This document shows positions 24,571-56,410 of a stretch of DNA of 64,000 nucleotides, piece by piece (within the stretch, counting starts at the first letter, position 1; each line of letters begins with the position of its first letter). The DNA is taken from contig NZ_JHWJ01000006.1 in the NCBI RefSeq assembly GCF_000687555.1, forward strand, positions 62,001-126,000, in the 5' to 3' direction. The notes under the pieces are model-generated. The model saw only the letters and a program-made list of their open reading frames with translations, ran no database searches and was not told the DNA's origin. The stretch is from [Clostridium] aerotolerans DSM 5434. GTDB lineage: Bacteria; Bacillota; Clostridia; Lachnospirales; Lachnospiraceae. The position numbers were made by a program, and so were the translations under genes.

Positions 24571-24714
24571 ATGAAAAAATTATCTGTTGTTATGGGAAAT
24601 GTTGTGTCTGCTCTTGCTCTTAAATCAGCTGTTACCACAAGCAATCTGGCATGCGGATATATTTATTATCAGCCTGAGATGCCAAAAGAAGCAAAGAAAT
24701 TAAGAAAATTCTAA
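24571..24714 (+). CDS. agrD: AgrD-like cyclic lactone autoinducer precursor peptide
   Basis: This 47-codon gene has AAAGGAGAG upstream. The peptide has a basic start, an amphipathic or hydrophobic leader (VVMGNVVSALALKSAV), Cys28 in LACGYIY, then the acidic, proline-containing tail YQPEMPKEAKKLRKF. This is the AgrD pattern: leader, core with Cys, conserved recognition tail. By alignment with staphylococcal AgrD, the ring should be a thiolactone from Cys28 to Tyr32 (CGYIY). It is directly followed by agrB. Confidence 0.88.
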   Translation: MKKLSVVMGNVVSALALKSAVTTSNLACGYIYYQPEMPKEAKKLRKF

Positions 24715-24718
24715 TATC

Positions 24719-25306
24719 ATGTTCAGAAGATTAAGTATCAGGATAGCCGATCAGCTGATCTCAATGGGGAGATTCATGGAAGAGGACAGGGCTATCTACC
24801 AGTTTGGTCTTGAGATGCTGTTCCTCAATCTTGTTAATTTGTTATCGGCAGCTTTCATAGGACTTTTTATGGGACAACTGCTGGAATGCTTTCTGTTCCT
24901 GGCACTTTTTATTCCTCTTCGCTGTCATGCAGGAGGATATCATGCAGAGAATCCACTGTGTTGTTATTTTTTGTCGAATGCAGTCATTGTTTTCGTTCTT
25001 CTGCTCCTTCGCACCCCTCCCGTAATGATGGAGAGGGGCGCAGGGGTGGCCTTCTTAACTTTATCCGCAGGCATGGCAGCAATTTTGGCCCCTGTGGAAA
25101 ACTTAAATAAGCCACTGGATGAAGTAGAGAAAAGGGTTTATGGATTCCGGACCCGGATTGTACTGATCATAGAGGTCCTTATTGGTCTGGTCTGCTACGC
25201 ATACGCCTATGATCAGGGGGGATGGATTGTATTACTGACCATTGCTCTCATGGTAATAACAGAACTACTGGGAATTTTACAAAATACCTTTAGCCGCAGC
25301 CGGTGA
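24719..25306 (+). CDS. agrB: AgrB-like peptide-processing membrane protease
   Basis: The 195-aa membrane protein has the AgrB signature LRCHAGGYHAENPLCC: His75 and Cys82 are seven residues apart, as in the catalytic pair of staphylococcal AgrB. Four to six transmembrane segments are apparent. It cleaves the AgrD tail and forms the thiolactone. It starts 4 nt after the agrD stop. A 115-bp gap to the AOR gene contains no recognisable terminator, only a T run without a good stem. Confidence 0.92.
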   Translation: MFRRLSIRIADQLISMGRFMEEDRAIYQFGLEMLFLNLVNLLSAAFIGLFMGQLLECFLFLALFIPLRCHAGGYHAENPLCCYFLSNAVIVFVLLLLRTPPVMMERGAGVAFLTLSAGMAAILAPVENLNKPLDEVEKRVYGFRTRIVLIIEVLIGLVCYAYAYDQGGWIVLLTIALMVITELLGILQNTFSRSR

Positions 25307-25421
25307 CCATCTTTTTTTTAAGACCCAAATCTGCTGCGAAGTACCACCCCACATTGGAGGCACATGACGCGGCGTGGCTTCACCAACGAAAAAAGCGGAT
25401 ATAGCAAGGAGGCTGGTAATC

Positions 25422-27476
25422 GTGGAATATATTCATGACAATCAGATTGCTACCATTAACTTAACCACTGGTGATGTGAGATTTGAAGAGATCACCAGAG
25501 AACTTAGAACGAATTACATAGGCGGGCCGGGAATCAATACGAAGATTTTGTATGATTCTGATGCTGCTGACCATGATGCCCTTTCAGAAAAGAACTTATT
25601 GATCTTTGGAATCGGGCCAAGTGTAGGCACTGGGCTTCCGGCCAGTAACCGTTGTACCATTACGGCGAAAAGTCCCATTACTGACGCGTATGGCGATTCC
25701 AATCTGGGCGGAGAATTTAACGTCAGGCTCCGTACGGTAGGAATCGATCATCTTGTATTTTCCGGAAGATCCGATCATCCGGTGTATGTTCTTATTAAAA
25801 GCAACCGTGAGATTGAAATATTAGATGCCAGCGAGCTTTGGGGAATGTATACGGAGAAAGTGACCGAGCTTCTTACGGAGCGTCATGGAAAAGGTTCAGA
25901 GGTTACCTGCATCGGGCCGGCAGGTGAGAATCTGGTACGGTTTGCAAGTGTCATCATGTCAAAATGCCATGTGGCAGGAAGAACCGGTATGGGATGCGTC
26001 ATGGGGGCAAAAAACTTAAAAGCCATTGTTGTAGAAAAAAAGGTTGGAAAACCCCAGGTATATAATCCGGAAAAGGTCAAGGAAATCCGGGATCGGTGGA
26101 TTAAGAAATGCCGGGCATCGGTTATCTTAAAATCCGGAAGTATTCAGGGAACCTTAATGCTAATCAAACGGTATCACAAGCAGGGGGCCCTGCCCATCCG
26201 TAATTTTCAGGCGGCTGATGATAAAAAGGTGAAAGAGTTATACGCTGAGAACTTCCTGTACAAACATGAGACAAAACGCAAAGCCTGTATTTACTGTCCC
26301 GTCGGGTGCGCCAGGGAATATGAGATTAAGGAAGGGCGGCATAAGGGAGAAAAAGGCGATCGTCTTGACTATGGTGCAGTCGCAGGCATCGGTCCGTTAA
26401 ACGGAATTTTTGACTGGGCAAGCATTCTTCATCTTAAAAATCTAAGTGACAATCTTGGCTTTGATGCCATTGAGGGTGGTTCTACCATTGGCTTCATCTT
26501 AGAGTGTTATCAAAGAGGTATCATAAAAAATCCAGAAAAGATTTATGAATTTGGCAATGCAGATGATGTGGAAGAATTAATGCATAAGATCTGCCTCAGA
26601 GAAGGAATCGGAGATATTGCAGCAGAAGGTGCTTACCGGGCTTCCATTGTGTTACATGCCGAAGAGTATGCATTTTGTATCAGAAAGTCTTCTGCTGGTC
26701 TTCATTCAAATTCCCATCTGGCAAAATCTTTAAGCTATCTCACCTCTACCAGAGGGGCAGATCACTTAAAGGGTTATGTATTTACTGCAGTTTTTGGCGG
26801 ATTTTTCTCCGAAGTGGTTTCAAAGCATATTTTTAAAACAAAGGCTGAGAAGAACTTTTCCAAAGTAGAGAAAAAAGGCCGTGTGGTATGCTGGCATGAA
26901 AATTATAAATATGCCATTGACTGCCTGGGGCTGTGCCTGTTTGCTATCACAGCACTTCCGAGTGCAGGCGTTGCCTATTTTAATGAATTTGCAGAGGTGA
27001 CTAACGCAATTCTGAATACGGATTTAACCGACGAAGAGATATATACTGCCGGAGAGCGTATTTATCAGCTTCAAAATGCCTTTAATGTGGCGTGTGGCTT
27101 AAAGCTGGAAGATTATCACTGGCCGGAGCGTAAAAAGGAAGATGGTGTGAAAGAAAAATTCCTGAAAGACACTACCATTAAGGTGGGAGGAGAGGAAGGA
27201 ATGCTTCCGGAATATTTCCGGTACAGAGGTCTGACGCCAGAAGGGCTTCCTACGGTAAAACGATTTCAGGAATTGGGCATTTCCATGTACATAGATAAGG
27301 CAAGAGCCACAGAGCTTAAAGATGTTATGCCCATAGAAGCTTTATTAAAAGAAGTTGGTCTAAATGCAGAGCTGACGAAAAAAGAAAACAGGATCAATGA
27401 GGTCATGAGCTCCCTGATTTGTAAGCTGATGACAAAACAGGACGAAAAAGCGCTGCGTAACATGAAGCATGAGTAG
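25422..27476 (+). CDS. Tungsten-containing aldehyde:ferredoxin oxidoreductase
   Basis: The GTG at 25422 lies 9 nt after AAGGAGG and gives the usual N-terminus (EYIHDNQIATINLTTGDV); a GTG at 25374 lacks such a site. The 684-aa protein has the AOR iron-sulfur ligands CIYCPVGC (Cys289, 292, 296) and the distant Cys505 in DCLGLCLF, nearly the same positions as in the Pyrococcus enzyme. Pterin-binding GPGINTK and GRTGMGCVMGAKNLKA are present. AOR interconverts carboxylic acids and aldehydes using ferredoxin. Here it opens a biosynthetic array that also contains tungstate uptake and pterin genes, so an acyl or aryl acid of that pathway is the likely substrate. This is inference. Confidence 0.93.
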   Translation: MEYIHDNQIATINLTTGDVRFEEITRELRTNYIGGPGINTKILYDSDAADHDALSEKNLLIFGIGPSVGTGLPASNRCTITAKSPITDAYGDSNLGGEFNVRLRTVGIDHLVFSGRSDHPVYVLIKSNREIEILDASELWGMYTEKVTELLTERHGKGSEVTCIGPAGENLVRFASVIMSKCHVAGRTGMGCVMGAKNLKAIVVEKKVGKPQVYNPEKVKEIRDRWIKKCRASVILKSGSIQGTLMLIKRYHKQGALPIRNFQAADDKKVKELYAENFLYKHETKRKACIYCPVGCAREYEIKEGRHKGEKGDRLDYGAVAGIGPLNGIFDWASILHLKNLSDNLGFDAIEGGSTIGFILECYQRGIIKNPEKIYEFGNADDVEELMHKICLREGIGDIAAEGAYRASIVLHAEEYAFCIRKSSAGLHSNSHLAKSLSYLTSTRGADHLKGYVFTAVFGGFFSEVVSKHIFKTKAEKNFSKVEKKGRVVCWHENYKYAIDCLGLCLFAITALPSAGVAYFNEFAEVTNAILNTDLTDEEIYTAGERIYQLQNAFNVACGLKLEDYHWPERKKEDGVKEKFLKDTTIKVGGEEGMLPEYFRYRGLTPEGLPTVKRFQELGISMYIDKARATELKDVMPIEALLKEVGLNAELTKKENRINEVMSSLICKLMTKQDEKALRNMKHE

Positions 27477-27499: not shown

Positions 27500-27997
27500 A
27501 TGGATTGGTTAGATAATAAAGAGAAAATAGAGATACGTTCGCAGGTTTTTATTCCTATTTCTGAGGATCAAAAAGGCATTGTTTTTGATCATGTGTATGA
27601 CAGAGAAAAGTTTCATAAATGGTTTGACTTTATGCCGGTTCTTTGGATCAGCTTTGACCGGAAACAGCTGGAGGAAGGCTGCATTGGAACTATCTGTTTT
27701 ACCATGCCTTTGTTCTATTACAGATTGAAGGTAACAGAAGTGATAAAGGAAAAATCAATTGTCCTTAAGGGAGATGGCGGCCCTATGAGAGGAAAGGCAT
27801 ATTTTAATTTCCATCCTGCTGATGGCGGGGTCATACTGGAAAACATTCATATTCTATCTGGTAAAAATAAGCTTGTGCATAAGTATTATGTTTATTGCCT
27901 GGTTCCCAATCATCTGGCTTTTATGAATTGGAGATATTCTGTCTTAAAAAAGCAAATTAAAAAAGAACTTGAAAGAAACAAAAAATCACATAAGTAG
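27500..27997 (+). CDS. SRPBCC-like (polyketide cyclase-like) protein
   Basis: The 165-aa protein has the shape of a helix-grip (START/SRPBCC) domain: an initial strand IRSQVFIPISE, helix DREKFHKWFDFMPVL, and long antiparallel strands ending in a C-terminal helix rich in Lys. Such domains bind hydrophobic ligands; some in PKS clusters act as cyclases or aromatases. No catalytic residue can be assigned. It begins 24 nt after the AOR gene. A second member of the group is encoded at 32,184. Confidence 0.55.
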   Translation: MDWLDNKEKIEIRSQVFIPISEDQKGIVFDHVYDREKFHKWFDFMPVLWISFDRKQLEEGCIGTICFTMPLFYYRLKVTEVIKEKSIVLKGDGGPMRGKAYFNFHPADGGVILENIHILSGKNKLVHKYYVYCLVPNHLAFMNWRYSVLKKQIKKELERNKKSHK

Positions 27998-28010
27998 AGA
28001 GGTGCTGATT

Positions 28011-28814
28011 ATGAGAGGTGTTATTTTAGCAGGCGGTCATGGAACGCGTCTGAATCCGTTAACGATCATTACCAACAAGCATTTGCTTCCAGTCTATAAA
28101 AAGCCCATGATCTATTACCCCATAGAGACCCTGGCTAAAGTAGGAATCAAAGATATTCTCATCGTTACAAGCGGAGAATATTTAGGGCATTTTTACAAGC
28201 TTCTAAAGACAGGGGAAGAGTTTGGGGTAAAGCTTCATTATGAGATTCAGGAAGGCAATGAAGGAACCGGAGCAGCCTTATTGTGCGCAGAGGAATTTGT
28301 AAGAGGTGATGAGTTTATGGTCATTCTTGGTGACAATATTGTGACGGAAGATCTAACATCGTTTGTAAAAGATTTTGAATCAGAGAAAAAGGATTTCAGT
28401 GCCAAGATTCTTATTACCCAGTCGGATAATCCAAAGCTTTACGGAGTGGTGGAATTTAAGAAAAATAAAATTACCAGGCTGGTGGAAAAGCCCAAAGAAC
28501 CTTTTTCCAATTACGTCAACACCGGCTTATGGATCTTTAAGCCAGAGGTATTTGAGCTGTTAAAGCAGATGAAGCTAAGCTCAAGAAATGAATATGAAAC
28601 CACGGATGTTCTCCACCACTATGCAGAACAGGGACAGCTTACCTATGGGATTTTAACTTCCAAATGGACCGATGCGGGAACCTTTGAACAGTTATTTGAG
28701 GCAACTGTATTGATGAAAGAGTTAGAAGAGAAGGAGAAAAAGGAAATTGAAAAAGATCATGTTTATCAGTCTTCCGGTATCCGGGCACGTAAACCCGCAG
28801 CTCAACCTGTGTAA
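28011..28814 (+). CDS. RmlA-like sugar nucleotidyltransferase
   Basis: The start is ATG 28011 (MRGVILAGGHGTRLNPLT), after GAGAGGTG; a start at 27969 would overlap the previous gene. The 267-aa protein has the nucleotide-binding GGxGTRL loop, KPMIYYP, LGDNIV and VEKPKEP, as in glucose-1-phosphate thymidylyltransferases. It is somewhat shorter than RmlA (about 290). It should make dTDP-glucose for the RmlB-like dehydratase at 43,547. Its last 68 bp overlap the next gene in another frame. Confidence 0.87.
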   Translation: MRGVILAGGHGTRLNPLTIITNKHLLPVYKKPMIYYPIETLAKVGIKDILIVTSGEYLGHFYKLLKTGEEFGVKLHYEIQEGNEGTGAALLCAEEFVRGDEFMVILGDNIVTEDLTSFVKDFESEKKDFSAKILITQSDNPKLYGVVEFKKNKITRLVEKPKEPFSNYVNTGLWIFKPEVFELLKQMKLSSRNEYETTDVLHHYAEQGQLTYGILTSKWTDAGTFEQLFEATVLMKELEEKEKKEIEKDHVYQSSGIRARKPAAQPV

Positions 28815-29955
28815 AGAATTATCCCAGCGTAATGTGAACCTGATTTATTATACCTTTGAGCAGTATTTCCATAAGTTTGACCAGATGGATGGGGTGGATT
28901 TGAGGAAATATCCCGATGATTTCTATCATTATTATAATAAGCTTGCGGCAGATGAGAAGCTTCAGTCACAGTTCATGAATCTGCTCTATGTATTTTATAC
29001 ATTTACAGAGAAGCTCCTCCCCTTCATGATGAAAGAAGTGGAAAAAGAGAAGCCGGATCTTATTATATGCGATACCCTGGCTATTTGGAGCAAAATTGCT
29101 GCCAGATATTTTCATATCCCCTATGTGTATTTTGTAAGCAGCTTTATGGGAGATAAGATCATGATGAAAGAAACACCTGCTTTTACCATGAGCCTGGTAA
29201 AAAGCGCAGCGGTTTCCATTCCTTATATCATGAAATTTAACACCATTATAAAACGGTTGGAAAAGCAGTATGGCAAGGTGGTCGATAAACCATGGAATAT
29301 CATGGAGCCGGAAGGAAAATTTACGATGGTGGTGACCTCCAGGGATTTTCATCCCGGCGGATATAAATATCCTTCTAATGTTAAATTTGTAGGCCCTGCC
29401 TTTGTGGACAAAGAAAATCTCACGGAAAAAAAAGATACCATATTCATCAGCCTTGGTACCATTTGTTTCAGCCATACCTATTGGGATATCTGTATTGATG
29501 CCTCCAAAGACTTAGGATATCAGGTGGTAGTATCCTTTGGCGGCAACAAGAATAATAAAGTAAATGAAGAAAACTTACCGGAACACGTAACGGTTTATGA
29601 GAATCTAAGCCTGGAGGAATACCGCAAGGTATTAAAACGGTCTGTATTATTCATATCCCACGGCGGGTTTAACAGCATCAGTGATTCCATTCTGTATGAG
29701 ACTCCCCTCATTATTTGCCCTGGGCATGCGGAGCAGGCCAGCAATGGAAGAGTGGTGGAAGCGGATGGCTGCGGAAAGCTTTTCATGGCAAATACAGAAG
29801 CGTTCCAGAAAGATAACTTAAAGGCGCTGATTCTTCAGGTAGTTGAAGATGATACCATGAAAAAGAATTTATCCAAATATCGCAAGTCCTTTTTAGAATC
29901 CCCTGGATTTCAGAAGGTGGTAGATGAATTAGACCAGGAATTTCAATTGTTCTGA
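28747..29955 (+). CDS. MGT-family glycosyltransferase
   Basis: The likely start is TTG 28747, 10 nt after AAGGAG, giving KKIMFISLPVSGHVNPQLNL, the complete GT1 N-terminus; the next ATG (28759) would remove only four residues. The 402-aa protein has FISLGTICF and the donor site FISHGGFNSISDSI followed by GHAEQASNGR. It would glycosylate the acyl or polyketide product, with the dTDP-deoxysugar made by the neighbouring genes as a plausible donor. It overlaps the preceding sugar gene by 68 bp, which is unusually long. Confidence 0.9.
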   Translation: MKKIMFISLPVSGHVNPQLNLCKELSQRNVNLIYYTFEQYFHKFDQMDGVDLRKYPDDFYHYYNKLAADEKLQSQFMNLLYVFYTFTEKLLPFMMKEVEKEKPDLIICDTLAIWSKIAARYFHIPYVYFVSSFMGDKIMMKETPAFTMSLVKSAAVSIPYIMKFNTIIKRLEKQYGKVVDKPWNIMEPEGKFTMVVTSRDFHPGGYKYPSNVKFVGPAFVDKENLTEKKDTIFISLGTICFSHTYWDICIDASKDLGYQVVVSFGGNKNNKVNEENLPEHVTVYENLSLEEYRKVLKRSVLFISHGGFNSISDSILYETPLIICPGHAEQASNGRVVEADGCGKLFMANTEAFQKDNLKALILQVVEDDTMKKNLSKYRKSFLESPGFQKVVDELDQEFQLF

Positions 29956-29978: not shown

Positions 29979-30947
29979 ATGGCTTTTATCGTAAATACGG
30001 CGCAGTATCTGCCTGCCAATGAGATATTCAATGATGACTTGACCCAGTTTCCGTCAAAATACCGGCAGCTCATTGAAGAAAAAGCTGGGATTAAGACAAG
30101 AAGACACGTGACAGATGAGTGCACTTCTGATCTTGGAGCTTTGGCGGTGAAAGAGCTTTTACGTAAGACCAGGATGAATCCCGTAGAGGTTGAGGTTCTT
30201 ATTTGTGCAACATCCTCCCCTGACCGGATACAGCCTGCCACTGCTACCAGGATACAGGAACTATGCGGGATTAAAAATGCCTTTGCATTTGATATTAATT
30301 CAGTCTGCAGCGGAGGAATCTACGGACTAAAGATCGCTTCTTCCCTCATAAATGACGGGGCCAAGAATGTAATCGTGGTGGCTTCAGAGGTATACAGCAA
30401 GATATTAAATCCAAAAGATATCGCTACGTTTCCTTATTTTGGGGACGGGGCGGCAGCCGTTCTTTTATCCGACCATGGAGCTTATGAACTGAAAGATATC
30501 CTGCTCTTTTCCGATGGAAGTGGCTGTGATGTGATTCAGGTTCCGGCAGGAGGAAGTATGCTACCGGCAGCAGCCGTTAAAAAGGAACGGGATTATTATT
30601 TTTCTATGGAGGGTCAAAGTGTGTACCGGTTTGCCTGTGAGAAGGGAAGCGAGCTGATTGGACTCCTTTCTAAGCGGAATGAGGTAATGGCGGACAGGGT
30701 CATCACTCATCAGGCCAATTTAAACATCATCAAAGAAATTGCCAGACGCACAGACGTTTCTGATGAGAAATTCTTCATCAATGTGGACAAATATGCCAAT
30801 ACAGCCGGTGCTTCCGTTCTCATTGCCTTAAACGAATATCTGGAGTCGGAAGAAGCAAAAAACGAAAATCATGTATTTCTTGCAGCCTTTGGAGGCGGTC
30901 TTTCCTGGGGCGGATGCTATTTAAAGAAAGAACACGATACTAAATAA
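29979..30947 (+). CDS. 3-oxoacyl-ACP synthase III (FabH-like)
   Basis: The 322-aa KAS III has an intact triad: Cys110 in INSVCSGGIYGL, His244 in VITHQANLN and Asn274 in KYANTAGAS. Length and motif order are canonical, so it should condense an acyl-CoA starter with malonyl-ACP. The ACP gene follows 27 bp later. In this locus the starter could be the acyl-CoA made by IorAB; the sequence does not reveal specificity. Confidence 0.92.
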   Translation: MAFIVNTAQYLPANEIFNDDLTQFPSKYRQLIEEKAGIKTRRHVTDECTSDLGALAVKELLRKTRMNPVEVEVLICATSSPDRIQPATATRIQELCGIKNAFAFDINSVCSGGIYGLKIASSLINDGAKNVIVVASEVYSKILNPKDIATFPYFGDGAAAVLLSDHGAYELKDILLFSDGSGCDVIQVPAGGSMLPAAAVKKERDYYFSMEGQSVYRFACEKGSELIGLLSKRNEVMADRVITHQANLNIIKEIARRTDVSDEKFFINVDKYANTAGASVLIALNEYLESEEAKNENHVFLAAFGGGLSWGGCYLKKEHDTK

Positions 30948-30974: not shown

Positions 30975-31193
30975 ATGTTAGATATTATTATGACACTTGC
31001 TACTGATATTTTTGAGGATGACGATATCCTTCCCACTTCCAGGTTGGAAGAAGCTAATAGATTTGATTCCATGAACCTGGTTCAGTTCATCATTGAACTG
31101 AGCGGAGCACTGGATATGGATATTGAAGATGAAGAAGTGGAAAAGACCATGACATTTGCTGAGCTGGCAAAGAACCTGGAAGCAAAAAAATAA
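30975..31193 (+). CDS. Acyl carrier protein
   Basis: The 72-aa acidic protein has the ACP attachment motif FDSMNLVQF, with Ser32 as the phosphopantetheine site. Asp-Ser-Met replaces the common Asp-Ser-Leu. Four short helices can be traced. It follows the KAS III gene and is probably its partner. A second ACP is at 35,837. Confidence 0.88.
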   Translation: MLDIIMTLATDIFEDDDILPTSRLEEANRFDSMNLVQFIIELSGALDMDIEDEEVEKTMTFAELAKNLEAKK

Positions 31194-31216: not shown

Positions 31217-32158
31217 GTGAGTGTCTTGGAATTTCGATTGCTGACGGAGGATTCGGAAAAGCTTAGGTTTGTAAATGGCTGGGAGCACGCTTTTAGCCGG
31301 TCCTTTGAAATGCGGGATTATGAATGGATCTTTGATTCCCGTAATCTTATCTATGGAGCCTTTGACCAGGAAACCTTGTGTGCAGGATATTGTATTCTGC
31401 AAAGCCAGGCTGTGTTTCAAGGGAATCTGGTAAAGAGCGGACTGTGCAATAATGTGTTTGTCACACCAGAATATCAGGGCTGCCATTTGTTTACAAAGCT
31501 TGGGCGGTATGTACTTTCAGCGGCCGGTGAAATGGGAATACAGATATTAATAGGAATGCCAAATGAAAGTTCTCTTCCGGGGCATCGGAGAGTAGGGTGG
31601 ACTACATTTCCTCCGAATTTTTATCTTGAAAAAAAGATAATAGAAGATGAGAGCGTAACTCAGTTAGAGGATGAGAGTATCACTCCCATCACCTCTCTTA
31701 ATTTTCCGTTGTGGAAAGAAGCTTTTAATGAATTTGCCTTTAAGATCTCTTTTGGAAGATCATTTTCCATTATCAAGGAGGCGGATTACTTTTCCTGGCG
31801 ATATTTAAATCGTCCTTCTGGAGATTACAAAATATTTATCTATCAGGAGAAGGGGGCGGTGAAGGGATATGTGGTATATAAGTACTACCAGCCTTTTAAA
31901 CGAATCCATATCCTTGATGTAGAAGCAGAGAATGAGACCGTCTTTTTCGAATTATTAAAGACGTCAGGAACCATAAAAGAATCGGTTTCTCTCATTAACG
32001 TGTTAAGCTCTACCATTTATGCAGATTATTTTAGTCGTGCTGGATACTGTATAAGTGCAGAATACAGCAACTTAATAGCACATGATCCTCTGTCAAAGGC
32101 CCCGGTTTCTCTTGGAGATACCTGTAATCTGGTCATAGGGGATAATGAAGTTTTTTAA
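31217..32158 (+). CDS. GNAT-like acyltransferase
   Basis: The 313-aa protein starts with a GTG at 31217 after a weak AAGGTGAGG site; a TTG at 31226 is an alternative. The N-terminal half is GNAT-like: NNVFVTPEYQGCHLFTKLG matches the acetyl-CoA-binding region, preceded by a strand AGYCILQSQ. The C-terminal half, with YFSWRYLNRPSGDYKIFIYQ, is characteristic of GNATs found in polysaccharide and lipid clusters. It could N- or O-acylate the sugar or chain; the substrate is unknown. Confidence 0.65.
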   Translation: MSVLEFRLLTEDSEKLRFVNGWEHAFSRSFEMRDYEWIFDSRNLIYGAFDQETLCAGYCILQSQAVFQGNLVKSGLCNNVFVTPEYQGCHLFTKLGRYVLSAAGEMGIQILIGMPNESSLPGHRRVGWTTFPPNFYLEKKIIEDESVTQLEDESITPITSLNFPLWKEAFNEFAFKISFGRSFSIIKEADYFSWRYLNRPSGDYKIFIYQEKGAVKGYVVYKYYQPFKRIHILDVEAENETVFFELLKTSGTIKESVSLINVLSSTIYADYFSRAGYCISAEYSNLIAHDPLSKAPVSLGDTCNLVIGDNEVF

Positions 32159-32183
32159 TACGAAAGATAAAGGAGATAGAGCG

Positions 32184-36882: not shown

Positions 36883-36901
36883 CTGGACAGGAGATGATAT
36901 T

Positions 36902-37324: not shown

Positions 37325-37328
37325 TTTG

Positions 37329-42307: not shown

Positions 42308-42317
42308 GGGGGTATCC

Positions 42318-43544: not shown

Positions 43545-43546
43545 AG

Positions 43547-44548: not shown

Positions 44549-44562
44549 GAGCAGGAGGCAGC

Positions 44563-47271: not shown

Positions 47272-47430
47272 GTGGAAAGGTTGTTAAAAGGAATCAAATT
47301 GTTATCAATGTGTGTCACAGCTATCATTTTATCTTCCGTCAGCTGGTTTCTATGGGACAAGCGGACCAATAAAATCTATTTTAAAACCAAACGGAAGCAT
47401 AAAGATATAGGAGACAGTTATGGAACGTAA
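47272..47430 (+). CDS. Small single-pass membrane protein
   Basis: The GTG at 47272 follows GGGAGAGGAG and opens a 52-aa reading frame: a basic start (MERLLKGIK), a hydrophobic span of about 20 residues (MCVTAIILSSVSWFLW) and a Lys-rich hydrophilic tail. It overlaps the following acyltransferase gene by 11 bp in another frame, so the two may be coupled. A TTG at 47281 is an alternative start. I do not recognise the family. It lies between the deacetylase and acyltransferase genes and could anchor an enzyme at the membrane. Confidence 0.5.
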   Translation: MERLLKGIKLLSMCVTAIILSSVSWFLWDKRTNKIYFKTKRKHKDIGDSYGT

Positions 47431-48384: not shown

Positions 48385-49365
48385 ATGATAGATCAATTCA
48401 AAAGAGACATCAATTATATAAGAATATCGGTCACAGACAGGTGTAACCTGGCCTGCGTATACTGTATGCCAAAGGACGGTGCTGTCTTTCTTCCAAAGAG
48501 CGAGATACTGACTTTTGAAGAAATCATCAGGCTATGCCGCTGCTTTGCCCGATTGGGAATTAAGCATGTGAAGATTACAGGCGGGGAACCACTCGTCAGG
48601 AAGGATATCATTTCCCTGGTGGGAGAGATGAAACGGTTGGAAGGAATCAGCCGTGTTACCCTGACTACCAATGGAGCCCTATTAATGGAGCACCTCCCTG
48701 GCCTTTTTGCAGCAGGATTAGACGGGGTAAATATCAGTCTTGACACCTTAGTCTCAGACCGATACAAACAGATTACAAGAAGAGACTGCTTTCATCAGGT
48801 GTACTCTGCCATAGAAGAAGCGGTTAAGTACAAAGAATTACAGGTTAAGATCAACTGTGTCCCAATGGCTGATACATCAAAAGAAGATATAAAAGGTCTG
48901 GTGGGACTTGCTAGAAGAAATCGGTTGAGTGTTCGGTTTATCGAGATGATGCCCATTGGACTAGGTAAGAATTATACCTTCTGCAAAGAAGAGGAGCTTC
49001 GCACCCTGATCACTCACACCTACGGAGAGATGACTCCCATTCCTTCGGCAAAAGAAGGCGGCCCAGCCCGTTACTATTCCTTACCAGGATTTGTTGGTTC
49101 CATCGGGTTTATCAGTGCCATGTCTCATAAGTTCTGTAACGAATGCAACCGGATTCGACTGACCGCGGACGGATATTTAAAGACCTGCCTCCAATATGAA
49201 AAAGGCTGGGATTTAAAATCCATATTAAGACGGGAAACCAGTGATGTCACCTTGGAACGGGCCATTGCACTTGGTATTTATGGAAAGCCAGATGGACACA
49301 GCTTTCATACTCCCCAGTACCCGGAGTACTATGAGCAGGATTATATGTCCCAGATCGGTGGATAA
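48385..49365 (+). CDS. moaA: GTP 3',8-cyclase MoaA
   Basis: The 326-aa radical SAM enzyme has TDRCNLACVYCMPK at the N-terminus for the first 4Fe-4S cluster, GGEPLVRKDI, and the second cluster site HKFCNECNRIRLT and KTCL near the C-terminus. It converts GTP to cyclic pyranopterin precursor for the tungsten or molybdenum cofactor. The gene starts 11 bp after the acyltransferase, so the cofactor genes appear to be part of the same transcript as the biosynthetic locus. Confidence 0.95.
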   Translation: MIDQFKRDINYIRISVTDRCNLACVYCMPKDGAVFLPKSEILTFEEIIRLCRCFARLGIKHVKITGGEPLVRKDIISLVGEMKRLEGISRVTLTTNGALLMEHLPGLFAAGLDGVNISLDTLVSDRYKQITRRDCFHQVYSAIEEAVKYKELQVKINCVPMADTSKEDIKGLVGLARRNRLSVRFIEMMPIGLGKNYTFCKEEELRTLITHTYGEMTPIPSAKEGGPARYYSLPGFVGSIGFISAMSHKFCNECNRIRLTADGYLKTCLQYEKGWDLKSILRRETSDVTLERAIALGIYGKPDGHSFHTPQYPEYYEQDYMSQIGG

Positions 49366-49422: not shown

Positions 49423-50316
49423 ATGAAATGTGTACGAATGATATTATTAAGCCTTATGGTATGTATCTTATTAATGGGATGCGGCACTGTCAAGACCTCA
49501 GAAACAACGGCACAGACCCAGCCTGTAACAACCACTGGAGCAGGTAAGAGTAATGAGGCGGTTCCGGTAAAAGGTAAAATTATCTTATCCACGACCACAA
49601 GTACCCAGGACTCCGGGCTTTTAGATGTGATTCTACCGGATTTCACAAAAAAGACAGGCTGGGAAGTGGATACCGTAGCAGTTGGCACCGGGGAAGCATT
49701 AAAGATGGGAGAAAGCGGTGAGGCAGATGTTCTACTTGTTCATGCCAAAGCAAAAGAAGAGGAGTTCATCAAAGCTGGTTATGGTGTAAAACGATACGAT
49801 GTCATGTATAACGACTTTGTGGTGGTAGGACCAACCGGGAAGATAGAGCCAAATGAAGACGTTAAGACAACGTTCCAGACTATTTTTGACAATCAGTATC
49901 CCTTTGTTTCCAGAGGAGATGATTCGGGGACCAATACAAAAGAGCTTTCTATTTGGAAATCCTTAAATCTTACACCCGATCAGAATCCTAATTATCTAAG
50001 CTCTGGTCAGGGAATGGGAGCGACGCTTCTTATGGCAGATGAAAAAGGTGCCTATACCTTATCCGACCGTGCCACTTGGCTGACGACTAAAGAGAAAACT
50101 TCCATGGATATTATCTGTGAAAAGGATACACAGCTTCTTAATTATTATGGAGTCATTGCGGTAAATCCCAAGCAGAATTCCAAGATCAATGAGGAGGGAG
50201 CAAAGGACTTTGTAGACTGGATTCTATCCGATGATACCCAAAAGCTCATTGGAAGCTATGGAATAGAAGAATATGGACAATCCTTATTTACTCCCAATGC
50301 AGGGGCCAATGAGTAA
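49423..50316 (+). CDS. tupA: Tungstate ABC transporter substrate-binding lipoprotein
   Basis: The 297-aa protein has a lipoprotein signal with lipobox LLMGCGT and a Thr-rich linker, then STTTSTQDSGLLDVILPDF, the TTTS signature of TupA/WtpA-type binding proteins. RGDDSGTNTKE and ATWLTTKEK complete the oxyanion site. It captures tungstate at the cell surface. It follows moaA by 57 bp. Confidence 0.93.
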   Translation: MKCVRMILLSLMVCILLMGCGTVKTSETTAQTQPVTTTGAGKSNEAVPVKGKIILSTTTSTQDSGLLDVILPDFTKKTGWEVDTVAVGTGEALKMGESGEADVLLVHAKAKEEEFIKAGYGVKRYDVMYNDFVVVGPTGKIEPNEDVKTTFQTIFDNQYPFVSRGDDSGTNTKELSIWKSLNLTPDQNPNYLSSGQGMGATLLMADEKGAYTLSDRATWLTTKEKTSMDIICEKDTQLLNYYGVIAVNPKQNSKINEEGAKDFVDWILSDDTQKLIGSYGIEEYGQSLFTPNAGANE

Positions 50317-50324: not shown

Positions 50325-50993
50325 ATGAATGTGACTCTTAATCGGGAAACCATGGATATCATATGGCTGACTATGAGGCTGGGGCTTGTTTCCACTTTTC
50401 TTTCTGCGCTTATTGGGATTCCCCTGGGTCTTTTATTAGAAAGCAGAGATTTTTATGGGAAGAGAGTTATTTTAAGGATCAACCGGACGCTTATGGGATT
50501 TCCGCCAGTGGTGGTGGGCCTGATTGTCTACCTGCTATTCATGCGCAGAGGGCCTTTTGGGGAGCTTTCCTTGTTGTTTTCTTTCCCTGCTATGGTCATT
50601 GCTCAGTTATTCATTATTACTCCCATTGTCAGCGGAATGGTTTGTACAGCAGCAAAGAATGTAGCATCGGAGATCCGTACATTTGCCATCAGCATGAATG
50701 CCAGCCGGAGTCAGACCTTTTTTCTGCTGATAAAGGAAATGAAGCACGATATCTATTTTACAATGGCAGCCAGCTTTGGGCGGTCTATTAGTGAAGTAGG
50801 TGCCGTTATGATCGTGGGAGGCAACATTCAGTATAAAACTAGAACCATGACCACTGCAATTTCCTTGATGAGGAACAAGGGGGATTACAGTGAGGCAATT
50901 ACCCTTGGAGTGGTTCTTTTGCTTCTTTCATTTTGCATACAGACACTAATGGATACGTTAAAAAGGTACGAAAACAATGGTGAAAATTATTGA
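50325..50993 (+). CDS. tupB: Tungstate ABC transporter permease
   Basis: The 222-aa integral membrane protein has about five or six transmembrane segments and the ABC coupling loop FAISMNASRSQTFFLLIKE followed by GRSISEVGAVMIVGG, the EAA-type motif. It forms the channel with TupA and TupC. It is separated by 8 nt from tupA. Confidence 0.93.
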   Translation: MNVTLNRETMDIIWLTMRLGLVSTFLSALIGIPLGLLLESRDFYGKRVILRINRTLMGFPPVVVGLIVYLLFMRRGPFGELSLLFSFPAMVIAQLFIITPIVSGMVCTAAKNVASEIRTFAISMNASRSQTFFLLIKEMKHDIYFTMAASFGRSISEVGAVMIVGGNIQYKTRTMTTAISLMRNKGDYSEAITLGVVLLLLSFCIQTLMDTLKRYENNGENY

Positions 50994-51645
50994 ACTGGAA
51001 AAAAGAATTGAAAGTTTTCAACTGGATATTAAGAGCCTGCTGTTTCAGGAAAAAAAGATACATGGGCTAATTGGCAGTAACGGAAGTGGAAAGTCCACGT
51101 TGATAAAGCTCATCACCGGACTGATGAGACCGGATCAGGGAACGATTGATCTTGGCAGCCTAAGGAGTAAGGACATTACCTTTACCACCCAAAGACCCTA
51201 TATGCTTCATGATACGGTTTATCATAACCTGATCTACCCTTTAAAAATAAGAAATCAGATTCCTGCAAAGGAAGTGATAGGAAAATGGCTTGATCTGTGC
51301 GGCCTTACAGGAAAAGAAGAGCAGTTTGCTCCCAGCCTTTCCAGTGGAGAACGCCAGAAGCTTTCCTTTGCCAGAGCACTCATATTTAAACCGAAACTGG
51401 TTTTTATCGATGAGACCATGGCAAACATGGACCCTGAGAGCATCCGAACGTTTGAGCGCATTATTACAGACATTCAAACAGAAGATCCTATCACCTGGGT
51501 GATTGTAAGCCACCAGCCCACTCATATCTACAATCTATGCCAGGAAGTTCATATGATGGAAGCCGGAAAGCTCCTCTTTTCGGGAACACCAAAGGAGACT
51601 GGATACTTTATTAAGGAAAGGCATGAAAAGCAATGGAGTTATTAA
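50977..51645 (+). CDS. tupC: Tungstate ABC transporter ATP-binding protein
   Basis: The 222-aa ATPase has a Walker A GSNGSGKSTLIK, Q-loop TTQRPYM, signature LSSGERQKLSFARA and Walker B LVFIDETMANMD, all intact. The His switch is in VSHQPTH. It overlaps tupB by 17 bp and moeA by 13 bp, linking tungstate uptake and cofactor insertion in one transcript. Confidence 0.94.
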   Translation: MVKIIELEKRIESFQLDIKSLLFQEKKIHGLIGSNGSGKSTLIKLITGLMRPDQGTIDLGSLRSKDITFTTQRPYMLHDTVYHNLIYPLKIRNQIPAKEVIGKWLDLCGLTGKEEQFAPSLSSGERQKLSFARALIFKPKLVFIDETMANMDPESIRTFERIITDIQTEDPITWVIVSHQPTHIYNLCQEVHMMEAGKLLFSGTPKETGYFIKERHEKQWSY

Positions 51646-52862
51646 AGGTCCATACCTTAGAAGGTGCGAGAGAAAAACTGGTAGATGTCATGGAGGGGAA
51701 AGAACCTAAGATTCTTCGGCTCGAACTCTTAAAATCGCTGGATCACATACTGGCTCAGGATATCATGGCAGGAGAGCCAGTTCCAGCTTATTGCCGTTCC
51801 ATGGTTGACGGATACGCTGTAATGTCAGGAGATACCGGGGGAGCCTCGGAGGGGCTTCCCGTACTGCTTAAGCTGGCTGGAGAGGTATCCATGGGCTTTT
51901 CGCCTGATTTTATTGTAAAAGCGGGAACCTGCGGATATGTGCCCACAGGAGGCATGATTCCTGAGGGAGCCGATGCCGTGGTCATGGAGGAATACTGTGA
52001 ACTGTTCGATGAACATCACCTGGCAGTCTATGATGCCGTGGCTCATGGTAAAAATGTAGTCGCACAGGGAGAGGATATCCGTCATGGTGAGGTGGTCATA
52101 AAAAAGGGAACCAGAATCCGTCCCCAGGAGATTGGAGTTATGGCCAGTCTTGGAGTTTTAGAGGTGATGGTATATGAGCCCTGGACCATAACCATTATCT
52201 CCACCGGAGACGAACTGGTACACCCATCGCGTCAGCCGTTACCTGGAGAAATCAGAGATATTAATTCCTACGCCCTCAGTGCCAAGGCGGAAGCTTACGG
52301 TCTTAAGGTGCTAAATGTTATGGTACTTAAAGACGAAAAGGAACCTTTAAAAGAAAAGGTGCTGCAATCCATGAAGACCAGTGATCTTGTCATGATATCT
52401 GGTGGCAGCTCCAAAGGGAAAAAAGATGCCACCAGCCAGATTATTGATGAAGTGACAGGGGGGAATTCTCTCATTCATGGATTGGCTTTAAAGCCGGGAA
52501 AGCCCTCCATCTTTGGATTTGACCCGTTAACTGGTACTTTGGTCGTTGGCCTGCCGGGTCATCCGGTGGCTGCCATACTGGTATTTGAACTCATGGTCGC
52601 TTGGCTTTATAAACATATGACCAATCAAAAAGGAGCTCATTCCCTTTTTGCCCGTATGACCACCAACCTGGCCGGAGCACCGGGCAGGGCCACCTGTCAG
52701 CTGGTAAGGCTTATAAAGAAGGAAGAGGAGTATTATGCAGAGCCTGTGCACGGAAAATCCGGCCTTATCAGTACTTTAACAAGAGCAGACGGCTATTTTA
52801 TAATGGGACAAAATCAGGAAGGAATAAAAAAAGAGCAGCGGGTGGAAGTATTTTATCTATGA
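51633..52862 (+). CDS. moeA: Molybdopterin molybdenumtransferase MoeA
   Basis: The 409-aa protein has the MoeA layout: PAYCRSMVDGYAV, PTGGMIPEGADAVVMEEY, TGDELVHP and ISGGSSKGKKDAT, with domain IV near the C-terminus. MoeA inserts metal into adenylated pterin. Because it follows tupC, the metal is probably tungsten here, though the protein itself does not tell. Confidence 0.93.
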   Translation: MELLKVHTLEGAREKLVDVMEGKEPKILRLELLKSLDHILAQDIMAGEPVPAYCRSMVDGYAVMSGDTGGASEGLPVLLKLAGEVSMGFSPDFIVKAGTCGYVPTGGMIPEGADAVVMEEYCELFDEHHLAVYDAVAHGKNVVAQGEDIRHGEVVIKKGTRIRPQEIGVMASLGVLEVMVYEPWTITIISTGDELVHPSRQPLPGEIRDINSYALSAKAEAYGLKVLNVMVLKDEKEPLKEKVLQSMKTSDLVMISGGSSKGKKDATSQIIDEVTGGNSLIHGLALKPGKPSIFGFDPLTGTLVVGLPGHPVAAILVFELMVAWLYKHMTNQKGAHSLFARMTTNLAGAPGRATCQLVRLIKKEEEYYAEPVHGKSGLISTLTRADGYFIMGQNQEGIKKEQRVEVFYL

Positions 52863-52890: not shown

Positions 52891-54801
52891 ATGGGTAAAA
52901 GGAATTTATACTTAAACAATACTCCGGTAGAAGAAGCTCGTATCATTTATGAGAATGCCTTGAAAAACCGGATCAAGATGGATTACGAAGAAATTCCAAC
53001 GGAAGCAAGCTTAGGTCGAATAACGAAAGAAGCTGTTTTTGCATTATGTTCTTCCCCTCTGTTTAACGCAGCCGCCATGGATGGAATTGCTGTAATCGCC
53101 GAAAGGACAAAGGGAGCATCCGACCGGGAACCATTGGAACTGAAAAAACACGAGGATTTTATTATCGTGGATACCGGTGATCCTGTTAAATATCCATACG
53201 ATGCTGTAATTATGGCAGAAGATGTGATAGAGATGGAGGACGGCTCCATAAAAATCTTGGAAGCAGCAACACCCTGGCAGCATATCAGGCCTGTGGGAGA
53301 GGATATTGTTGTCGGAGAAATGCTTTTAGCCAGTATGCATAAAATCCGCCCCATTGACATCGGGGTTCTTTTTTCCGGAGGAATTACAAACGTCAAAGTG
53401 GTAAAACAACCAAAGGTAGCCATTTTCCCTACGGGCACGGAGATCATCGAACCTGGAGAAGTGCCAAAAGATGGAGATATCATAGAATCCAATTCCAGAA
53501 TGTTTGAAGCGATGGTAGACTCTTACGGTGGAATTGCAGAGCGTTTTTCTCCCATTGAAGATGATTACGATAAGATTAAAAATGCGGTGTCCGGCGCCCT
53601 GGATTACTGCGATATGGTCATTGTAAACGCTGGCTCCAGCGCAGGAACAGAAGATTATACGGTTCATGTTTTAAGGGAGCTTGGGGAAGTCTTGGTACAC
53701 GGAGTTGCCATAAAGCCAGGAAAGCCAGTCATACTTGCCGTAATAAAGAATAAGCCAGTCATTGGACTTCCCGGCTATCCGGTATCCGCCTACATTGGAT
53801 TTGAAACTTTTGTAAAGCCAATTTTATCCATGTTTACGGGAGAACACGGATATGATAGCAACAAGGTAAATGCCGTACTCTCAAAGCGTCTCGTCTCTTC
53901 CTTAAAGCACAAGGAATACGTGAGAGTAAAGGTCGGAGAGGTGGATGGAAGATTGGTGGCATCCCCCCTTTCCAGAGGTGCCGGTGCGGCTATGAGTCTT
54001 GTACGTGCAGATGGTTTTTGTGTGATCGATCAGAACTGCGAAGGCATAGAAGCAGGAGAAGCCGTAAATGTAGAGCTTTACAGAAGCTTATCAGAGATCA
54101 GACATACCCTGGTTTCCATTGGGAGCCATGATCTTATTCTTGATATCATTGGAGATTTGATGTCGATTCACAATCCGGGAATCTATATGTCCAGCACTCA
54201 TGTAGGGAGCATGGGAGGTCTTATGGCCTTAAGGCGGGGAGAGGCACATATGGTTCCGGTTCATCTCCTCGATGAGGAATCCGGAGTATATAACATCCCT
54301 TATTTAATCCGGTTATTCAAAGAACCAATGGCACTTATAAAAGGAGTCAAACGGATTCAGGGCCTGATGATCCAAAAGGGCAATCCACGTATGATAAAAG
54401 GAATAGAAGATCTGGCTGATTGCCGTTATGTAAATAGGCAAAGAGGAGCGGGGACCCGTGTGCTTTTTGATTACAAGCTAAAGCTTTCAGGCATGGATGC
54501 TTCTCTGATCTCTGGTTACGACAGAGAAGCATCGACCCATATGGCAGCAGCGGCCCTGGTGGCCAGCAACAGCGCGGACGCTGCCCTGGGAATATATGCG
54601 GCTGCAAGTGCCATGGATTTGGAGTTTCTTCCCATTGGAGAAGAAGAGTATGATTTTGCAGTGCCGGTCAAATATTTAGACCTTCCTGAAATGCAGTCCT
54701 TTCTTCAAGTATTAAAATCAAAAGAGCTTCACCGTCGTATGGATGAGATCGGCGGGTATCAATATGATATGGCAGGTGAAATAATTTTCCTTCATCAATG
54801 A
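52891..54801 (+). CDS. MoeA fused to a C-terminal periplasmic-binding-like domain
   Basis: The 636-aa protein has a MoeA half (residues 1-400, with [23 protein letters not shown] and [12 protein letters not shown]) and a C-terminal substrate-binding-like domain (about 415-636, starting [14 protein letters not shown], with [13 protein letters not shown]). Such fusions occur in clostridia and archaea and are thought to bind the metal oxyanion or sense it. With the separate MoeA upstream, two MoeA proteins are encoded in tandem, as in some tungsten-using organisms. Confidence 0.92.
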
Positions 54802-54856
54802 AATAAGCAGCCAGATGCACAAAGGAAGCAGTGTACAAGAAAGGAAGTCAGAGAAC

Positions 54857-55351
54857 ATGGAGATAGAGACTGGTTTTACACATTTTGACACCAATGGAAA
54901 CGCCGTCATGGTAGATGTGACAGATAAAAAAGAAACCGTCAGGGAAGCAGTAGCAAAAGGAAGAATCAAGATCAGCAAAGCCATCTATGAAGCAATTAGG
55001 AATAAAAACATAGAAAAAGGTGATGTGCTTGGAATCGCCAGAGTGGCTGGAATCATGGGAGCCAAAAAGACCCCGGACCTGATTCCCCTGTGTCACACCC
55101 TCCCAATCACCAAAGCGTCAGTGGATTTTAATATGGATTCCCATAGCTATGAGATTGAAGCAGTCTGTACCATAAAGACAACTGGAAAAACCGGTGTTGA
55201 AATGGAAGCACTTACTGGTGTGAGTGTTGCTCTTTTGACCATTTACGATATGTGTAAGGCAATGGATAAAGGGATGATGATAAAGGATATCTATCTGGAG
55301 CAGAAATCAGGCGGAAAAAGTGGGGATTTCTTAGCAGACAGAAACAGATAA
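54857..55351 (+). CDS. moaC: Cyclic pyranopterin monophosphate synthase MoaC
   Basis: The start is ATG 54857 after AAAGGAAG; an earlier in-frame ATG at 54815 lacks a site. The 164-aa protein has the MoaC signatures [30 protein letters not shown] and [11 protein letters not shown]. It completes the first pterin step with MoaA. MoaD and MoaE are not seen in this window. Confidence 0.95.
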
Positions 55352-55373
55352 ATAACAGGGATCGGTGAGAGAT

Positions 55374-56306
55374 ATGGGAATTGTAAAGGCAGTATGTATC
55401 AGTGAGAATCGGGGAACCCAAAAGGTAAATGTGAAAACAGCTGAGTTTGCCATGAACTATGGGATTATAGGAGACGCTCATGGGGGGAGCTGGCATCGTC
55501 AGGTAAGTCTTCTGTCTCATGAAAAGATTGAGGCATTTAAAAGAGAGGGCGCGGATGTTCTCCCCGGTGCTTTTGGAGAAAATCTGATTGTGGAAGGCTT
55601 TGATTTCAGTTCCATTCCAATAGGCACCAGATTTCAGTGCAAGGATGTAATCTTGCAGTTGACACAGCATGGCAAACAATGCCATTCCCACTGTCAGATC
55701 TATTACAAAATGGGGAAATGTATCATGCCCACAGAGGGAACGTTTGCAGAAGTTATAAAGGGCGGGACAATTTCTGTGGGAGATGAGGTGATTCAGCTTA
55801 AGGATCGGGATGAGAGATTGACAGCTGCCGTTATAACCCTCAGTGATTCTGGTTTTGCAGGAAAACGGGAAGACAGGAGCGGAGTGCTGTTAAAAGAGCT
55901 GTTAGAAGAAAACGGCTACCGTATAGTGGAATCCTTGCTGCTTCCCGATGAACAAAGCCAGATTGAGGAAGAGCTGATCAGACTTTCTGATCAAAGAGAG
56001 GTGAATCTAATCGTGACAACCGGCGGAACCGGATTTTCTCCAAGAGACTGTACACCAGAGGCAACTCTCGCGGTAGCCACCAGAAATGCTCCCGGAATTG
56101 CAGAGGCCATGAGACTATACAGCATGGCAATTACAAAGCGAGCCATGCTCAGCCGCGGAGTCAGTGTAATTCGGGGAAAGACATTAATCGTAAATCTTCC
56201 CGGAAGCCCTAAAGCGGTAAAAGAAAGCATGGAATGTATTGCAGATCAGTTACCCCATGGATTAAATGTATTATTAGGAAGGGTATCCAATTGCGCAAGG
56301 CCATGA
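55374..56306 (+). CDS. MOSC domain-MogA/MoaB fusion protein
   Basis: The start is ATG 55374. The 310-aa protein has an N-terminal MOSC domain (residues 1-150: IIGDAHGGSWHRQVSLLSHE, GAFGENLIVEG and QHGKQCHSHC, with a conserved Cys) and a C-terminal MogA/MoaB adenylyltransferase domain (from about residue 155: AVITLSDSGFAGKREDRSG, TTGGTGFSPRD). The MogA half activates the pterin for MoeA, and MOSC domains are associated with sulfur transfer. It is the last gene of the long array and is followed by a terminator. Confidence 0.92.
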   Translation: MGIVKAVCISENRGTQKVNVKTAEFAMNYGIIGDAHGGSWHRQVSLLSHEKIEAFKREGADVLPGAFGENLIVEGFDFSSIPIGTRFQCKDVILQLTQHGKQCHSHCQIYYKMGKCIMPTEGTFAEVIKGGTISVGDEVIQLKDRDERLTAAVITLSDSGFAGKREDRSGVLLKELLEENGYRIVESLLLPDEQSQIEEELIRLSDQREVNLIVTTGGTGFSPRDCTPEATLAVATRNAPGIAEAMRLYSMAITKRAMLSRGVSVIRGKTLIVNLPGSPKAVKESMECIADQLPHGLNVLLGRVSNCARP

Positions 56307-56376
56307 AGCTGGTTTGGTAGTTTCTCAATATATGAAACACCAATAATAAATTTAAATGAGATGAATAAAGTTAATG

Positions 56377-56410
56377 CAGAGAGCCTTGTAAAGCAAAGCT
56401 CTCTGTTTTT
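56377..56410 (+). terminator. Terminator of the long AOR-PKS-tungstopterin array
   Basis: CAGAGAGC (56,377-56,384) and GCTCTCTG (56,398-56,405) form an 8-bp stem with a 13-nt loop, followed by five T residues. It lies 70 bp after the MOSC-MogA stop. It is the first clear terminator on the + strand after 25.3 kb that I could find. Confidence 0.75.

Follow-up and report, generated by a model that had tools for sequence, protein, structure and literature searches.

An apparently undescribed kind of clostridial gene cluster that would join carrier-protein assembly to a tungsten-type aldehyde oxidoreductase

We analysed a stretch of 64,000 nucleotides of [Clostridium] aerotolerans DSM 5434 (the window; contig C6:62001-126000 of a 4.73-Mb, 50-contig genome), in which a nearly gapless + strand array of 37 genes runs from agrD (24571) to a gene for a MOSC-Mog fusion (end 56306) and an inverted repeat at 56.4 kb. 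The count takes in agrD and a 52-amino-acid open reading frame (ORF). The array had been singled out by a reading of the sequence alone, without database searches (the sequence-only reading), and domain and profile matches recovered all the genes named there on the + strand: Agr genes, an aldehyde oxidoreductase (AOR), IorAB, ketosynthases (KAS), acyl carrier proteins (ACP), crotonases, a B12 radical SAM enzyme, sugar genes, Tup-like transporter genes and pterin genes. We consider it probable (roughly 0.7) that the array is a specialised-metabolite cluster of a clostridial cluster family, which would make an ACP-built acyl or polyketide-like glycoside with a clade-specific, tungsten-type AOR as a fixed tailoring step. 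Judging from gene content and conservation, the family is apparently a real and undescribed kind of biosynthetic pathway.

From sequence comparison it is clear that the gene arrangement is not due to chance, because it is syntenic in Lacrimispora relatives, with full-length genes about 63–99% identical, and its core recurs in other genera. Within the genus the AOR (at least 90% identical) and a StlD/DarB-like KAS (at least 94%) occur in exactly the same six of 25 genomes, so that none of these genomes has this AOR without the KAS. The proposal that AOR and KAS/ACP genes form one unit thus holds up within the genus as well as in clusters outside it. The neighbourhoods of three relatives (G299, G300 and G320) were examined whole; two others (G307 and G321) were judged by match positions, according to which AOR, IorA, KAS and TupA share a stretch of some 25 kb of a single contig.

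Among 299 genomes of the family that were searched, a single AOR from beyond the genus stood out clearly from the other matches, that of G278 (45% identical). Searching the class with the StlD/DarB-like KAS gave matches in 5 of 391 genomes, among them G403, G517 and G528 (68–70%), and later searches added G1162, from the genus of G528, and G1087, where a 3.8-kb contig carries crotonase B, the KAS and the B12 radical SAM gene. A profile of the KAS found the window genome only among 398 genomes of the phylum, one of six genomes in the family of G403 (G403 itself), two of 22 in the order of G517 and two of 247 in the order of G528. A plasmid search with the KAS returned 32 records, none of at least 60% identity; among the matches listed identity was about 24–26%, and these were general KAS III relatives. 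Cluster genes were found in six genera of four families. All five neighbourhoods outside the genus that were long enough for a judgement (G278, G403, G517, G528 and G1162) contain the core, consisting of the AOR, FabD-like acyltransferase, ACP 2, both crotonases, SRPBCC protein 1, hotdog thioesterase, StlD/DarB-like KAS, B12 radical SAM enzyme, hydroxyacyl dehydrogenase, FabF-type KAS, glycosyltransferase and phosphopantetheinyl transferase (PPTase). Gene order is close to that of the window in four of them and rearranged in G528. Core proteins in other genera are 21–69% identical to those of the window, with 44–57% for the AOR, 64–69% for the StlD/DarB-like KAS, 58–62% for the FabF-type KAS and 49–69% for the B12 radical SAM enzyme.

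The accessory genes are more variable. A flavodoxin gene is present in four of the five outside neighbourhoods, relatives of RmlA and RmlB in three (G403, G528, G1162), a KAS III relative in two (G403, G517) and metal genes beside the cluster in two (G278, G403). G528 carries in addition a 2,3-dehydratase, an aminotransferase, further glycosyltransferases and a MacB/FtsX-type protein, and G403 and G517 each have one further glycosyltransferase. G1162 shares the sugar and tailoring set of the window (RmlA 74%, RmlB 71%, PIG-L 60%, GNAT 45%, epimerase 40% identical) while the congeneric G528 has a different one, which suggests horizontal movement. Two adjacent proteins of 468 and 453 amino acids without a Pfam match lie in the G403 cluster (L076:11789-14556), and neighbours of similar size were seen in G517. 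Next to the G278 cluster lie large non-ribosomal-peptide-like genes and genes for ABC transporters (L055:5692-17023, continuing upstream in L054), by eye a possible siderophore cluster.

The core AOR (25374..27476) belongs to the AFOR family by both domains (AFOR_N 229 bits, AFOR_C 288 bits; cut-offs 29.8 and 27) and by its iron-sulfur (FeS) cluster cysteines. The closest named relatives found for it are from Clostridium sp. 12(A) (98%) and from Lacrimispora amygdalina, L. algidixylanolytica and a metagenome-assembled genome labelled "Hungatella sp." (90–91%), and on these matches we assign the window genome to Lacrimispora. In a tree of nine cluster rows and 23 other AORs of the family (24 comparison loci, with L025 left out) the cluster AORs form a single clade with a support of 100/100, so far seen in these clusters only. 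According to PMC12727526, every AOR mechanism that has been proposed gives an assisting role to a conserved glutamate and histidine, which in the enzyme of C. autoethanogenum are E312 and H448. In the alignment with that enzyme (CaAFOR) E312 corresponds to Gly334 and H448 to His464. Position 334 is Gly in 9/9 cluster AORs (eight rows plus G1162, aligned as the ninth) but Glu in 20 of the 23 others, which otherwise have Lys (two) or Ala (one). The catalytic His464 is kept in all nine, and the residue before it, position 463, is Asp in all nine as against Cys in 17 of 23 others. Also kept in 9/9 are the FeS-cluster cysteines 305, 308, 312 and 521. The G1162 enzyme reads EFG, retaining the Gly, and RGGDHLR, retaining Asp and His; it likewise has every one of the further sites that distinguish the clade from the 20 Glu-type AORs (C208, K355, S440, Y581, F615, L620). 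Set against the AORs of P. furiosus (1aor) and C. autoethanogenum (9g7j), the window enzyme shares both AFOR domains, the FeS cysteines and the catalytic His, but differs in Gly334 for Glu312/313, in Asp463 for the Cys before the His, in a C-terminus about 60 residues longer and in its setting inside a KAS/ACP cluster. An identity as class II benzoyl-CoA reductase was considered and rejected, BamB being the lowest-scoring of nine PDB matches.

Because the catalytic Glu is Gly in all nine cluster AORs, ordinary aldehyde/acid chemistry appears doubtful for them. The FeS cysteines are kept and therefore the replacement does not look like decay. From the alignment we favour a changed reaction, or a shift of the acid to Asp463. 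A more ambitious proposal, to which we would give somewhat less than even odds, is that a tungsten enzyme is obligatory in the assembly of a specialised metabolite: the AOR clade would have abandoned aldehyde/acid chemistry and acquired a new low-potential reaction on a polyketide-like intermediate, the Asp next to the His would have taken over the acid group of Glu312, and the enzyme would work together with beta-oxidation-type enzymes and a His-less KAS. Conceivable too, if on the doubtful side, is an AOR of ordinary activity, in which Asp463 replaces Glu and the acid released by the thioesterase is reduced to an aldehyde, or an aldehyde oxidised. Such an enzyme would explain the full AFOR domains, the intact cysteines and His, a thioesterase in the same cluster and an Asp next to the His where most other AORs carry Cys. 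It fits less well with the loss of Glu in every cluster AOR and with the clade-specific changes at sites conserved among the 20 Glu-type AORs.

The AOR is surrounded by enzymes of carrier-protein assembly. Discrete ACPs and a PPTase, a trait of type II polyketide synthases, are both encoded in the array: ACP 1 (30975..31193; weak ACP matches), the core ACP 2 (35837..36142; PF00550) and the core Sfp-type PPTase (45051..45749; domain match). Catalytic residues are kept in the core FabF-type KAS (42294..43544; Cys and two His) and in a FabH-type KAS III (29979..30947; Cys, His and Asn). The core StlD/DarB-like KAS (38668..39780) resembles the StlD/DarB ketosynthases of stilbene and dialkylresorcinol pathways, which are its best profile match and best PDB match over nearly the full length, and it keeps the Cys (Cys133). 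It is unlike them in staying below the family cut-off (111.8 of 450 bits) and in that the His of StlD aligns with Asn292, part of an invariant NMPS motif, in 9/9 cluster sequences. The core FabD-like acyltransferase (47420..48373) has GYSMG in the window and GYSxG instead of GHSxG in all nine, and an Asn aligns with the Arg of its best PDB match. In malonyl-CoA:ACP transacylases this Arg binds malonate; the window enzyme thus has neither the GHSxG motif nor the malonate-binding Arg of that class.

Further core genes encode crotonase A (36145..36882) and crotonase B (37943..38650), both of which keep the two catalytic Glu positions that we take over from enoyl-CoA hydratase, a hotdog thioesterase (36899..37324; probable ATT start), a B12-binding radical SAM enzyme (39796..41193; domain and profile matches) and a 3-hydroxyacyl-CoA-dehydrogenase-type ketoreductase (41201..42307; domain match). 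For SRPBCC protein 1 (27500..27997), also of the core, an AlphaFold model (predicted local distance difference test, pLDDT, 86.6) gave Foldseek matches to SRPBCC/START-type folds, including StfQ, an aromatase/cyclase, and DynU16, which comes from a natural-product locus. Only at the level of the fold does this support a ligand-binding or cyclase role; when its profile was searched against PDB sequences, the matches were weak ones to DNA polymerases (E about 0.5). The protein at 37326..37946, without a Pfam match, has an ORF at the matching position in outside clusters; since identity in three aligned clusters is only 12–19%, homology is uncertain. The ACP-crotonase-KAS order brought a 3-hydroxy-3-methylglutaryl (HMG) synthase beta-branching cassette into consideration, which was rejected, as no HMG-CoA synthase Pfam family matched at E 0.001 and the NCBIfam HMG model reached 37.8 of 244 bits. 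No chain-length-factor (CLF)-like partner was recognised among the array proteins searched, which include a single FabF-type KAS. The absence of a recognisable enoyl reductase from the array suggests an unsaturated or cyclised chain.

Sugar genes are interspersed with these enzymes: an RmlA-like sugar nucleotidyltransferase (28011..28814; domain and profile matches), a core MGT-type glycosyltransferase (28747..29955; TIGR01426 178 bits, below the cut-off of 260), a dTDP-glucose 4,6-dehydratase, RmlB (43541..44548; TIGR01181 428 bits), a sugar epimerase/reductase-like short-chain dehydrogenase/reductase (SDR; 45692..46615; domain match) and a PIG-L-type deacetylase (46612..47244; domain match). 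The sugar genes together with the glycosyltransferase agree with the earlier expectation that the product is probably glycosylated. Other genes of this part encode a GNAT acyltransferase (31217..32158; PF13527), a small protein without a Pfam match that we judged by eye to be SRPBCC-like (32145..32603), a membrane protein with two relatives in the G1162 neighbourhood (34954..35814), a flavodoxin (44467..45045; PF12724) and the 52-amino-acid ORF, which has a GTG start, a hydrophobic stretch and no Pfam match (47272..47430; 63–90% identical in three of three relatives compared).

From these assignments we infer the following route. The PPTase would activate the ACPs, and the FabD-like acyltransferase, lacking the usual malonate-binding Arg, would load a non-malonyl group. 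Chain extension would fall to the FabF-type KAS, and the 3-hydroxyacyl dehydrogenase and the two crotonases would process the beta carbon, as in beta-oxidation run backwards, leaving unsaturation behind. Cyclisation or transfer of the chain may be the task of the His-less StlD/DarB-like KAS and the SRPBCC protein, and the B12 radical SAM enzyme may methylate or cyclise it. The AOR would bring about a low-potential two-electron change on the intermediate, drawing its electrons from ferredoxin or flavodoxin or, in Lacrimispora, perhaps from a 2-oxoacid that IorAB oxidises. Release would be by the thioesterase, and the glycosyltransferase and the dTDP-sugar enzymes would finish the product. In Lacrimispora the array opens with a putative agr switch and closes with genes for metal uptake and pterin synthesis.

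The combination was compared with known systems. Clusters of the clostrubin and wexrubicin type would be expected to hold separate genes for KAS and ACP. These type II polyketides of anaerobes are likewise polyketides of clostridia (PMC11747023); the array appears to differ from their clusters in that no CLF partner was recognised and in having beta-oxidation-type tailoring and an AOR. The ladderane candidate clusters (PMC2649909) also combine fatty-acid-synthase (FAS)-like genes with radical SAM enzymes; the words aldehyde and tungsten are absent from the main text of that paper, and the ladderane B12 radical SAM model scored 32 bits against the array at a cut-off of 360. The pathway could instead make or modify a cell-envelope glycolipid or a fatty-acid-derived lipid rather than a secreted small molecule, which the FAS-like and beta-oxidation-like enzymes, the membrane protein and the glycosyltransferase would suit. 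We regard this as unlikely, since the glycosyltransferases belong to the macrolide/EryCIII type and each genus tends to have its own deoxysugar set, as would suit small-molecule glycosides.

Several observations weigh against the interpretation as a specialised-metabolite cluster with the AOR as a fixed step. An AOR that has lost its catalytic Glu might be inactive or have a non-redox function, and the predicted structure of the enzyme (pLDDT 38.6) offered no usable pocket model and was not used. Tungsten genes do not lie beside the cluster in G300, G517, G528 and G1162, and a second AOR, 32–34% identical to that of the window, occurs with its own tungsten module in G300, G304, G311 and G313. 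IorAB and agr are both linked to the cluster in Lacrimispora only: IorAB lies beside it in none of the five outside neighbourhoods, and AgrB was not recognised in any of these (G278, G403, G517, G528, G1162). An internal deletion has shortened the flavodoxin of G320 (L061:7630-7965), G300 keeps a remnant of 29 residues (L065:2491-2577) and none was recognised in G528; the protein is therefore dispensable and not an obligatory electron donor. Moreover, the genomes of the genus are related, so that genus counts are not independent, and the edges of the G278 cluster are unclear because non-ribosomal-peptide-like genes adjoin it.

The metal and pterin module at the end of the array comprises MoaA (48385..49365; TIGR02666 357 bits), a TupA-like binding protein (49423..50316; 245 bits, cut-off 400), a TupB-like permease (50325..50993), a TupC-like ATPase (50977..51645), MoeA (51633..52862; profile matches), a MoeA with a binding-protein domain (52891..54801; domain and profile matches), MoaC (54815..55351; PF01967 199 bits) and the MOSC-Mog fusion (55365..56306; domain matches). 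The array proteins searched included no recognisable MoaD- or MoaE-like protein. TupA, TupB and TupC match tungstate models but all remain below the curated cut-offs, so that tungsten is no more than the presumed metal. TupA was found in the same nine of 25 genus genomes as AOR matches (E 1e-10) and in 0/16 others (Fisher p 5e-7, relatedness ignored). In G304 and G311 the second AOR lies directly next to its module; G300 and G313 carry the two on different contigs. The AOR/KAS cluster of G300 stops at the acyltransferase, the next 19 kb are without metal genes and the sole TupA lies in the other module. The module of G304 and G311 (L083, L084) resembles that of the window in its metal and pterin genes, most of them 58–77% identical, and differs in that its AOR is only 32–34% identical, has the canonical Glu and is accompanied by no recognised KAS or ACP in the 20-kb stretches. 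Since metal genes are missing from the G300 cluster and present beside other AORs, the module is, on this comparison, a portable AOR-support module that follows AORs in general, and one copy per genome seems able to serve two AORs. The tungsten genes had been regarded as part of the pathway; they do accompany AORs, but they are not specific to it.

The same data could be taken to mean that the AOR and the metal genes form a module of their own for handling aldehydes, which merely adjoins a polyketide-like cluster; the module of G304 and G311, without KAS genes in the stretches examined, and the missing metal genes beside the G300 cluster might indicate this. Such an arrangement is quite improbable, because it is the AOR and not the metal module that is constant: it is present in 5/5 outside clusters, belongs to one clade and shares its six of 25 genomes with the KAS. 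A degradative aromatic or fatty-acid pathway, with a benzoyl-CoA-reductase-like AOR acting alongside hydratases and a dehydrogenase, would account for an AOR-family enzyme, crotonases and a 3-hydroxyacyl dehydrogenase occurring together, yet is very hard to reconcile with ACPs, a PPTase, ketosynthases, sugar genes and the low rank of BamB.

Both IorA (32611..34344; TIGR03336 705 bits) and IorB (34362..34964; NF005325 284 bits) exceed their cut-offs. IorA occurs in 6/6 cluster-bearing and 3/19 other genomes of the genus. The sequence-only reading had taken IorAB for the redox partner of the AOR; the link of IorAB to the cluster does not extend beyond Lacrimispora, since G278, G403, G517 and G528 each have one IorA on a different contig from the cluster. 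This distribution would fit a role of IorAB in supplying electrons or an acyl-CoA without amounting to proof of one, as the Lacrimispora gene is itself part of the cluster.

All components of an Agr quorum-sensing locus were found. The array opens with agrD for the autoinducer peptide precursor (24571..24714; TIGR04223 43.3 bits, cut-off 19) and agrB for the peptidase (24719..25306; PF04647 117 bits); divergent and upstream on the - strand lie genes for an AgrC-like sensor kinase (22285..23619; GHKL domain) and an AgrA-like response regulator (23616..24401; LytTR and Response_reg above cut-offs). The supposed agr linkage of the array is thus borne out in Lacrimispora by AgrD, AgrB, AgrC and AgrA and, to judge by AgrB, is not seen in the five outside neighbourhoods. 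In the agrA-agrD gap a LytTR-site-like direct repeat consists of TAAGAGAA, a 13-bp spacer and TAAGAGAA (24447..24475, + strand). PMC6193735 reports 9-bp repeats bound by LytTR regulators upstream of the -35 element, with a spacer of mostly 12 and sometimes 11 or 13 bp. The pair is exact in four of five aligned genomes, with the second copy degenerate in the fifth; the pattern was defined post hoc, and the chance figure of 0.13 expected (at most two mismatches) is only a guide. Beyond agrC lies a divergent gene for an FdhD/NarQ-type sulfurtransferase (21451..22257, - strand; PF02634 236 bits), whose position beside the cluster is kept in Lacrimispora relatives. G320 has a further agr-like locus near the far end of its cluster (L060:11407-14128; AgrB 25%, AgrC 28% and AgrA 25% identical).

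A single transcript from agrD to 56.4 kb is plausible from the layout. Gaps had been put at about 115 bp at most; the largest is 175 bp (47245-47419) and contains the 52-amino-acid ORF. The 115-bp gap before the hotdog gene is an annotation effect: the frame is open upstream, a candidate ATT start at 36899 is preceded by AGGAG, and the gap vanishes with this start. Read from 36899, the 4HBT_2 score rises from 20.7 to 49.3 bits. The ATT is shared by the window, G320 and G299, and G300 has one extra base and an in-frame ATG. Between 24.3 and 41 kb, with both strands counted, there are 6 terminator-like sites against 14.4 expected, and between 41 and 57.5 kb 20 against 14.3 expected (sd 3.9); promoter-like sites in the array are at chance level. 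The inverted repeat at the end (56377-56405; 12 pairs), a probable terminator, is followed by TTTTT on the + strand, although the scan listed it on the - strand. No clean insertion (empty) site was found in the region near the upstream rsmH-like gene in G302, G305, G306 and G300, because the flanks differ among these genomes.

A separate type II polyketide-like cluster lies upstream in the window (2042-14229). It holds an acyltransferase, FabG-like SDRs, two KAS each followed by a CLF-like KAS, a FabA-like dehydratase, a KAS III, a PPTase and a split PEP-utiliser/PPDK-like gene pair, and a LytTR regulator gene comes after it. Copies of its KAS III, 87–97% identical, occur near the array in G299 and G320; none was seen near the array in G300.

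To our knowledge AOR-family tungsten enzymes belong to energy and aldehyde metabolism and to anaerobic degradation, not to the assembly of specialised metabolites, and our literature searches did not contradict this. In the open-access literature searched, no paper was found that places an AOR or a tungsten enzyme in a cluster of this kind, subscription papers and preprints being outside the scope of the search; where the phrase was met, in PMC8346489, the occurrence found is in the reference list. The claim that no described pathway has such a combination therefore stands for the open-access literature searched. What would be new is a carrier-protein gene cluster with an AOR-family enzyme in its core. 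If true, a conserved AOR clade tied to carrier-protein clusters and with a changed active site would extend tungsten chemistry, and the clusters would offer a genetic way into the natural products of strict anaerobes. A Gly334/Asp463 AOR together with a His-less KAS and a B12 radical SAM enzyme would serve as a marker for further clusters, and the pathway is directly testable in culturable Lacrimispora.

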